From NCBI GenBank assembly GCA_034190545.1, contig JAXIOF010000027.1, forward strand, positions 1 to 53,808: 53,808 nucleotides of DNA, given 5' to 3'. A model generated the notes under the pieces. It saw nothing but the letters and a program-made list of their open reading frames with translations. It was not told where the DNA came from and did no database searches. The translations under genes were made by a program, and so were the position numbers. The DNA comes from Candidatus Afararchaeum irisae (GTDB taxonomy: Archaea > Halobacteriota > Halobacteria > Halobacteriales > Afararchaeaceae). This document shows positions 46,275-48,248 of the stretch, piece by piece (positions within the stretch are counted from its first letter, which is position 1; every line of letters begins with the position of its first letter).

Positions 46275-46303
46275 CGGAGACCATTTTCGACCACCACTCT
46301 ACA

Positions 46304-46339
46304 GATGTAGTAACCCTTATATCTGTGTAGTACTACATC
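46304..46339. promoter_or_regulatory. Operator-like inverted repeats around the rhodanese TATA box
   Basis: GATGTAGTA (46304-46312) and TACTACATC (46331-46339) are perfect nine-base inverted copies flanking TTATAT (46317-46322). The second arm is also part of a perfect 12-base palindrome TGTAGTACTACA (46326-46337) lying between TATA and the likely transcription start. A repressor bound here would block initiation. Confidence 0.55.
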
Positions 46340-46345
46340 CGTAAT

Positions 46346-46708
46346 ATGAAACGTGTCGAGGACACCGAGGGAGCTACACAGAGACAACAGGACATCCCCC
46401 AGGCGTCAGCCGACGAGGCTAAGGAACTCGTCGAATCCGACGACTACTTCGTGCTCGACGTCAGGAACCCCGACGAACACGAGGAAAAGAGGATACCCGG
46501 AACAGACCGTCTGGTTCCCGTCAAGATAATCGACGGAATGGTAGACAAGATAGACGCCGACAGCCTACTCGTCTACTGCAGAAGCGGGTCGAGAAGCATG
46601 AGAGCGTGCAGACAGCTAGTCGACGGAGACTTCGACGAGGTCGTCAACCTCGACGGAGGAATAAACGGCTGGATCGACGACGGCTTCGAAGTCGAACGCG
46701 GAAGCTAA
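46346..46708 (+). CDS. Rhodanese-domain protein
   Basis: A 120-residue single rhodanese domain: [20 protein letters not shown], then the active-site loop [15 protein letters not shown] with the catalytic cysteine, then [15 protein letters not shown]. The family transfers sulfur or binds thiols; the partner is unknown. The promoter is TTATAT 27 bases before the ATG, surrounded by operator-like repeats, so expression is probably regulated. It lies 71 bases after the PurN-PurH gene. Confidence 0.87.
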
Positions 46709-46823: not shown

Positions 46824-47366
46824 TTGTCAAATTCGGACATTACATTCGACGAGTCATTTAACAGAATGAGGGGGCTGACGGGGGAGATAGAACAGTTCCT
46901 TTCACTTATAAATACGAAGCCTAGCCTCGAAAGGGTCGACCCGGTGGAGGCTCTCGAAGAGGGATTCTCCGAGGTCAAGGGAGAGTCGACGGAGACGGAA
47001 GCGGAGGTCTCAGCCGACGGAGGTAGGGAAGACGAAGCCACCGACATACTCGCCGACAGAAGACTTCTCAAACATCTCTTCGTCTCAGTCTTCCGGTTCG
47101 CCGACAGGGAAGACAGAAGCGACGTCTCTGTCGAGATAACCGACGGCAGCCTCGTTATCCGTGACCCGGGACTCCCGTCTTCTATTCCCTCAGGAGCATG
47201 GGAGCCGGGTTATAGCTCGGGCTCAGGGGGTTCGGGTCTCGCAGTCGTGAGACAGGTCTGTGAGACACACGGCTGGGAGATATCTGACTCTGGCTCTGAC
47301 TCTGACTCCGACGTAGGTGTCCTTAGGATAGACAACCTACTCATACCGAGGATCGATCCCGAGTAG
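46824..47366 (+). CDS. Degenerate histidine-kinase-like ATPase-domain protein
   Basis: A 180-residue acidic protein. The C-terminal half resembles the HATPase domain of haloarchaeal sensor kinases: VEITDGSLVIRDPGLP (G1 box), WEPGYSSGSGGSGLAVVRQV (G2 box), ETHGWEIS. The N-box asparagine is missing (LLKHLFVSVFRFA), and no phospho-accepting histidine is seen in the short N-terminus. It is probably not an active kinase; it may bind a partner. The start is a TTG at 46824 (or ATG 46866). An Asp/Ser run (SGSDSDSDVG) lies near the end. Confidence 0.6.
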   Translation: MSNSDITFDESFNRMRGLTGEIEQFLSLINTKPSLERVDPVEALEEGFSEVKGESTETEAEVSADGGREDEATDILADRRLLKHLFVSVFRFADREDRSDVSVEITDGSLVIRDPGLPSSIPSGAWEPGYSSGSGGSGLAVVRQVCETHGWEISDSGSDSDSDVGVLRIDNLLIPRIDPE

Positions 47367-47385
47367 CAGTAGCTTCCAAAAAGAC

Positions 47386-47414
47386 TTTATACACGTACTA
47401 CTATGTCTGTAGTA
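47386..47414 (+). promoter_or_regulatory. Promoter and operator-like repeat of the candidate RNA at 47415
   Basis: TTATAC (47387-47392) is a TATA box about 25 bases before 47415. Between them are TACTAC (47396-47401) and GTAGTA (47409-47414), an inverted repeat with a seven-base spacer. It begins nine bases after the TATA start, the same offset as the TGTAGTACTACA palindrome in the rhodanese promoter. Confidence 0.5.
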
Positions 47415-47487
47415 GCACCGGTCAGTTCCCCCCATTTCCCCCACCATACCTAAGCTGAGCCGGTGTCACCCCTATCCATACGTTTTT
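47415..47487 (+). ncRNA. Candidate small RNA: hairpin presenting a C-rich loop
   Basis: No reading frame explains this stretch. From the predicted start a hairpin forms: bases 47416-47425 (CACCGGTCAG) pair with 47455-47465 (CTGAGCCGGTG), ten base pairs with one bulged G. The loop of about 29 bases carries two runs, CCCCCC and CCCCC. A TATA box sits at the right distance, and TTTTT (47483-47487) follows as a possible terminator. C-rich loops in small RNAs often pair with G-rich ribosome binding sites; that role is inference. Confidence 0.5.
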
Positions 47488-47528
47488 CCCTACACTTGTA
47501 ACCACCTTTTAATCACCTTTTAACCAAG

Positions 47529-48248
47529 TCAGTCCCTCCAGTCGTCGGCATCTCTGCTGTCACGTATCTTCCCCTTGGCGTGTCGGGGCATGGGCCAGAG
47601 CGCGAGTGCCACGGCTGCGGAGTAGACACCGAGGACTCCGAGGACTACGGCTGTTCCGGGAACACGAGAGACGGAGGCTGATTCTAAAGCAGAGACGTTC
47701 TCTGGTGTGAAGGCGGTGACCCTGAGAGCCCACGATCCGACTAAGAGTGTTAGAATAGGGAGGTAGACACGTCTGAGACGCCGTGAGAGAGCCTCGACGA
47801 AGGGTATCTTCGCCGCGGGCTCCCTCAGGTCGTCGCTCAGAAGAGTTCTCCATCTCTCGTTCTCGACGCCCTCGGGGTCTATGGCGTTCGCGAAGACGTT
47901 CTCCTCAAGCATCCTGACACGTGACCGCCAGACGTCGTAGGTTCTGTAACGGCGTGCCTCGACTACGAGGAAGACCAAGACGGCTACCACGCCTCCGAGG
48001 AGGACATAATGCGGGTTGTCGGGACTCGAAAACCCCCAGGTCAGTAGGGTCGCTGTCACGACGACAGCCCAGTTGGTCGTCCTGTCGAGACGTGATCTCC
48101 AAGCAGTCGCTCTTCCCAGCTCTCCCCTGTAGAAATGTCCCATGAGTCCGAAGAACTCGGAGGACTCCTCGGCTGCCTCGGCTCCTATCTCGCGCTCCTC
48201 GGGTGACGAGGGGTCAAAAGAGTCGGGGTCAGGGTCAGAGTCTTCCAT
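47529..48248 (-). CDS. DUF2270 membrane protein
   Basis: A 239-residue protein. The N-terminus is acidic, with FFGLMGHFYRGELGRATAWRSRLDRTTNW matching DUF2270 (motif from FFGLM to RTTNW). Four hydrophobic helices follow, with VEARRYRTYDVWRSRVRMLEENVFA between the second and third. The family is widespread in haloarchaea, with no known function. The first residues carry a short Asp-Pro repeat (SDPDPDSFDP) coded by hexamers. It is divergent from the alcohol dehydrogenase gene. Confidence 0.82.
   Translation of the reverse strand: MEDSDPDPDSFDPSSPEEREIGAEAAEESSEFFGLMGHFYRGELGRATAWRSRLDRTTNWAVVVTATLLTWGFSSPDNPHYVLLGGVVAVLVFLVVEARRYRTYDVWRSRVRMLEENVFANAIDPEGVENERWRTLLSDDLREPAAKIPFVEALSRRLRRVYLPILTLLVGSWALRVTAFTPENVSALESASVSRVPGTAVVLGVLGVYSAAVALALWPMPRHAKGKIRDSRDADDWRD

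Follow-up and report, generated by a model that had tools for sequence, protein, structure and literature searches.

Does the gap between two convergent genes of Candidatus Afararchaeum irisae hold a regulated small RNA (sRNA) gene, and if so, what would the RNA serve? The window analysed here is a stretch of 53,808 nucleotides, contig C27 of a 1.9 Mb haloarchaeal genome, the one genome of its family in the comparison; the element in question lies at 47415-47487. A preliminary description, made from the sequence alone, had seen there a candidate sRNA with its own regulated promoter. We found two paralogues in the same genome, three compensatory pair changes in the hairpin and an operator common to 19 sites, all of which favour that view. 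We hold with high confidence that 47415-47487, predicted to be transcribed, is one member of a real non-coding sRNA gene family that counts three siblings in the genome.

Three copies of a probable hairpin RNA gene

The intergenic gap spans 47367-47528 (162 bases) between the stops of the convergent genes and contains the following elements.

47375-47392, + strand: basal promoter, made up of a B recognition element (BRE)-like TCCAAAAA at 47375-47382 and a TATA-like CTTTATAC at 47385-47392, identified by sequence and by a spacing found in all three copies
47399-47414, inverted repeat: putative operator TACTATGTCTGTAGTA, consensus TACTAC-N4-GTAGTA, between TATA and start
47415-47487, + strand: predicted small RNA of about 73 nt, identified by fold z score, paralogues and covariation
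47416-47425, + strand: 5' stem arm CACCGGTCAG, identified by folding and covariation
47426-47454, + strand: C-rich loop TTCCCCCCATTTCCCCCACCATACCTAAG, with C6 at 47428-47433 and C5 at 47438-47442
47455-47465, + strand: 3' stem arm CTGA-G-CCGGTG, with the bulged G at 47459
47466-47472, + strand: TCACCCC directly 3' of the stem, common to copies 1 and 2
47483-47487, + strand: T5 tract, likely an archaeal terminator

The TATA box, the start at the onset of the stem, the ten-base-pair stem with its single bulge, the loop with runs of six and five C and the T run after the hairpin, all named in the preliminary description, were located at these positions, the stem beginning at the predicted start (47415). 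On folding, the window copy formed the 10 Watson-Crick pairs with the one bulged G, and three further pairs. The 73-nt RNA reached -16.2 kcal/mol compared to a shuffled mean of -7.2 (z -4.27; 1 of 200 shuffles was as good), unlike the opposite strand of 47415-47487, which gave a z of 0.25. Rfam covariance models showed no match to the RNA at the gathering cut-off or at E up to 1.

Using the gap as query against the same genome, we detected two paralogues, C71:4858-4953 (copy 2; 78% over 96 bases, E 5.8e-16) and C85:918-967 (copy 3; a partial match), both in gene contexts unrelated to that of the window copy (copy 1). Common to all three are TCCAAAAA and a TATA-like box (CTTT/TTTT-A) at equal spacing, an inverted repeat that ends just 5' of the predicted start, and an RNA that opens with GCACCGG. 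Copies 1 and 2 form a single hairpin in which 12 of 12 pairs are kept, three of them changed on both sides and one changed from U-G to U-A, with the one-base bulge at an equal position. Sliding the partner by 1-3 columns lowered the pairing of these two copies from 100% to 23-42%. Moreover, their loop core CCCCCCATTTCCCCCACCATAC (47428-47449) is identical apart from two extra C. In copy 3, the promoter, the operator and the first seven stem pairs are kept; a further hairpin comes next, and the tail is long and C-rich. Copies 2 and 3 likewise have a T4-T5 tract 3' of their C-rich part. A covariance model built on the hairpin recovered copies 1 and 2 alone in the genome.

The length of the gap stood as first described, whereas its lack of any frame must be qualified, as a 16-codon ATG frame begins at 47403. 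Since this frame opens 5' of where the RNA is predicted to begin and the paralogues do not keep it (it is interrupted in copies 2 and 3), a peptide-coding reading was dropped. As in sibling sRNAs of the LhrC/Qrr type, there are several copies with the same promoter control and a shared seed, the C-rich part of copy 3 being in the tail; as in trans-acting sRNAs, there is an own promoter, a defined structure and an unconserved frame.

The operator and its gene set

The inverted repeat at 47399-47414, already called operator-like, proved to belong to a set of 19 promoter-located sites; its likely membership in a sulfur/redox regulon goes beyond the preliminary description. The exact form CTACTA-N6-TAGTAG occurs three times in the genome, exclusively in the three sRNA promoters. 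Inspection of sites with one mismatch, all of which turned out to be promoter-located, led to the refined consensus TACTAC-N4-GTAGTA, for which we counted 19 sites (2 exact, 17 with one mismatch), whereas base composition would give about 2.5. Every one of the 19 is intergenic, though about 88% of the genome is coding. Three sites serve the sRNAs and eight serve sulfur or sulfide-type genes, namely three rhodaneses, a rhodanese-MBL fusion, DsrE2, YgaP-TM, cytochrome bd (the subunit I gene, cydA) and a Rieske-like gene. The rhodanese-MBL fusion has a weak Blh match and resembles persulfide dioxygenases. Behind further sites lie genes for two UPF0058 proteins and small membrane proteins and a gene adjoining a COX1-type oxidase subunit, and the few other sites belong to a RIO kinase and two long gaps. 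In the promoters of the sRNAs and of most leaderless genes, the operator is placed 3' of the TATA box and 5' of the start; DsrE2, rhodanese-MBL and one membrane protein have it 5' of the TATA box. The TATA-to-start distance of the sRNA equals that of leaderless genes with the same operator, and an AT peak at -30 to -25 was observed in sampled genes of the genome. The repeat is probably a genuine operator that is shared with a sulfur/redox gene set and is predicted to be bound by a regulator.

Another gene of this regulon and the two convergent neighbours of the sRNA lie in the window.

46297-46312: second operator-like site, two mismatches
46331-46346: putative operator TACTACATCCGTAATA, one mismatch, reaching the rhodanese ATG
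46346-46708, + strand: single-domain rhodanese gene (Pfam PF00581, E 2e-14), predicted leaderless, same regulon
46824-47366: convergent neighbour gene, weak HATPase match
47529-48248: convergent neighbour gene, DUF2270

The operator-like sites at 46297 and 46331 flank the TATA box of the rhodanese gene 46346-46708. Elsewhere in the genome, L079:1262-1618 and L080:990-1346 (contigs C59 and C116) encode identical rhodanese proteins behind near-identical promoters in different contexts, and a hairpin just 5' of these two genes, ACCACCATTTCCCAGTGGTGGT, resembles part of the sRNA loop. A long gap near glutamine synthetase (L065:1134-1569) has an operator site and possibly encodes another non-coding transcript, without the C-rich hairpin of the family.

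Regulator and signal

Which factor might bind this operator? TrmB of Halobacterium binds TACT-N7-8-GAGTA (PMC4158304); the dyad here, TACT-N8-AGTA, has a TrmB-like spacing but T instead of G before AGTA. For TrmB, an operator 3' of TATA results in repression and one upstream of it in activation (PMC4158304, PMC10817205). Exact TACTAC-N4-GTAGTA was also found in several haloarchaeal families (L098-L124) at promoters of conserved genes. Judged from the protein starts, these apparently include sugar and central-carbon genes. In these haloarchaea the palindrome has the look of a TrmB-type operator, so a factor of that type may have been recruited here.

Candidate regulators, and possible sulfur sensors, are winged-helix (wHTH)-rhodanese fusions. 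The genome encodes two of them (L011:237-1136, L157:304-1386), one beside cytochrome bd and one directly before sulfide:quinone oxidoreductase (SQR), and similar fusions occur in some other haloarchaea. Since the operator was absent near relatives of the cydA-side fusion in other genomes, we keep the wHTH-rhodanese as a regulator candidate only. OxsR was dropped because its motif is CG-rich (PMC9426492).

Regarding the signal, YgaV of E. coli is sulfide-responsive and controls ygaP and cydAB (PMC9774250). In bacteria, sulfide-responsive regulators control genes of the same kinds: rhodanese, YgaP, a persulfide-dioxygenase-like fusion and cytochrome bd. We therefore infer a sulfide/persulfide or related redox signal. 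By this analogy, we lean slightly towards sulfide or persulfide as the inducer.

The C-rich loop and possible targets

The earlier suggestion that the C-rich loop binds G-rich ribosome sites is plausible, with weak support: 8-base matches occur at a few gene starts, whereas a long complement was missing and co-folding did no better than shuffles (see below). In a sample of about 184 kb, perfect 8-base complements were found near gene starts at a frequency of 8/50, compared to 0/51 and 3/60 for controls, and these matches overlap, leaving effectively about five sites versus two. GGGGGGAA, the complement of the loop segment UUCCCCCC, occurs three times in the sample outside the sRNA genes. One occurrence coincides with the ribosome site of the wHTH-rhodanese gene that is followed by SQR, another is close to where tusA begins, the gene preceding a YeeE-type sulfur transporter, and the third falls within the start of a gene of the regulon at C67. 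These locations are suggestive in that they agree with the sulfur theme. We give an even chance to an antisense action of the C-rich loop through the predicted pairing.

Proposed mechanism and alternatives

Taken as a whole, the explanation that we somewhat favour is a repressed sibling sRNA that serves a sulfur/redox response and whose C-rich loop pairs with G-rich mRNA starts. A TrmB/MarR-like winged-helix factor at TACTAC-N4-GTAGTA, between TATA and start, would repress the sRNA promoter. The same factor would control rhodaneses, the rhodanese-MBL fusion, DsrE2, the YgaP-type membrane protein and cytochrome bd, and since the RNA would share it with these genes, it would be made under sulfide/persulfide or a related redox shift. 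The hairpin would then offer its C-rich loop for pairing with G-rich ribosome-binding or start regions, resulting in less translation and adding a post-transcriptional layer to the response. The copies, the covariation, the operator and the regulon were read from the sequence; from these we infer transcription, repression, inducer and targets. More doubtful, and offered tentatively, is a bolder version in which this is the first archaeal sibling sRNA family within a sulfide/persulfide response, with a dual regulator that would repress both sRNAs and rhodaneses and with loops that would shut the G-rich starts of operons for sulfide oxidation (wHTH-rhodanese-SQR) and sulfur import (TusA-YeeE).

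Several observations weigh against the favoured explanation. The covariation depends on two sequences alone, and in a column-shuffle control 76 of 500 shuffles did as well; with two rows in the alignment, this control is unable to reach significance. Copy 3 is without the C-rich loop and has a C-rich stretch in its tail instead, and several operator sites are at genes without obvious sulfur link. The target sample covers about a tenth of the genome and is partly biased, and its matches were picked post hoc. Besides the sRNA genes, no site in the genome matched the 18-base loop complement within 3 mismatches, and targets, if any, would therefore rely on short seeds. Co-folding with the proposed targets was mostly no better than shuffles, with a method that cannot model loop pairing. 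Finally, homologues were absent from 196 sampled genomes of the order (covariance model), the operator-plus-stem-start pattern was not found in 394 genomes, and 29 DUF2270 neighbour loci showed neither the hairpin family nor synteny. The family may be confined to one species.

Plasmid and phage collections contained no homologue. Weak blastn matches in other haloarchaea proved unrelated, as did 4 genome-contig and 3 viral matches, and a similar palindrome of other genera, CTACTAGCTAGCTAGTAG, is a separate conserved element and not a homologue. A palindromic element with shared flanks, GTTCTACTAGCTAGCTAGTAG, recurs in several haloarchaeal genera (L039-L044). The preliminary description had looked to relatives for conserved pairing; covariation was found in a paralogue, and no relatives were found outside the genome. 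However, narrow distribution is also known for sRNA132 of Haloferax (PMC6560208) and is therefore no argument against function.

Could the regulated RNA be real and its C-rich loop bind and titrate a protein, of the KH type or another single-strand binder, rather than mRNAs? The loop core is identical in copies 1 and 2 yet has no long genomic complement, and low-complexity C runs would suit a protein ligand; with no candidate binder in hand and short G-rich matches present at gene starts, we consider this unlikely. It is also improbable, in our judgement, that the RNA controls carbon or general redox genes, with an operator that serves a metabolic regulator of TrmB type and with sulfur genes as a side branch. 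The closeness of the Halobacterium TrmB motif (PMC4158304) and the exact palindromes at apparent sugar/central-carbon promoters elsewhere in haloarchaea would fit such a role, but no sugar genes are among the sites here, where sulfur and terminal-oxidase genes predominate. Three dispersed copies with a hairpin-like inverted repeat might suggest a DNA repeat resembling a miniature inverted-repeat transposable element (MITE), with a promoter and without RNA function. This is very improbable, as conservation spans promoter, operator, stem and loop, the stem has diverged through compensatory changes around an unchanged loop, many unrelated genes use the operator, and no terminal repeats or target duplications were seen. 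Hardly any weight goes to an antisense or convergent-end role, in which the transcript would matter just by entering the convergent DUF2270 gene from its 3' end, since copies 1 and 2 do face a convergent gene in this way but copy 3 is not so oriented, the C-rich loop is kept despite different neighbours, and T tracts follow each hairpin unit.

Relation to known systems

To our knowledge, a regulator, signal or target is known for very few archaeal sRNAs, and the operator regulon seems undescribed so far. Read as a repressed sibling sRNA, the RNA at 47415-47487 comes with a defined operator, a regulon indicative of a signal, and two siblings that can be used in genetic tests, and post-transcriptional control of archaeal sulfur/redox stress would become directly testable. 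If true, the family would be a candidate RNA arm of the archaeal sulfur response.

Small RNAs of the LhrC and IsrR type target ribosome sites. The family described here resembles the LhrC siblings of Listeria (PMC4132741) and IsrR of Staphylococcus (PMC9410917) in its single-stranded C/UC-rich segments and control by a regulator, and LhrC also in its multiple copies (PMC4132741). In contrast, those RNAs are bacterial, have other regulators and show no sequence kinship, and target pairing here is predicted alone. Like our candidate, sRNA132 of Haloferax volcanii (PMC6560208) is a haloarchaeal intergenic sRNA with its own BRE/TATA and a narrow distribution; it is tied to a nutrient response, namely phosphate, is a single copy of other sequence, and is described without statement of a C-rich loop or shared operator. 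The gene set is similar to BigR/SqrR/YgaV persulfide regulons in its rhodanese, YgaP-type protein, persulfide dioxygenase fusion and cytochrome bd, whereas those regulons have ArsR-family repressors and other operators, and the available part of the source mentions no sRNA member (PMC9774250). The operator itself shares a TACT...AGTA dyad and similar spacing with archaeal TrmB operators; the known TrmB cases concern sugar metabolism, whereas here sulfur and oxidase genes stand together with sRNAs under a candidate regulator (PMC4158304, PMC10817205).
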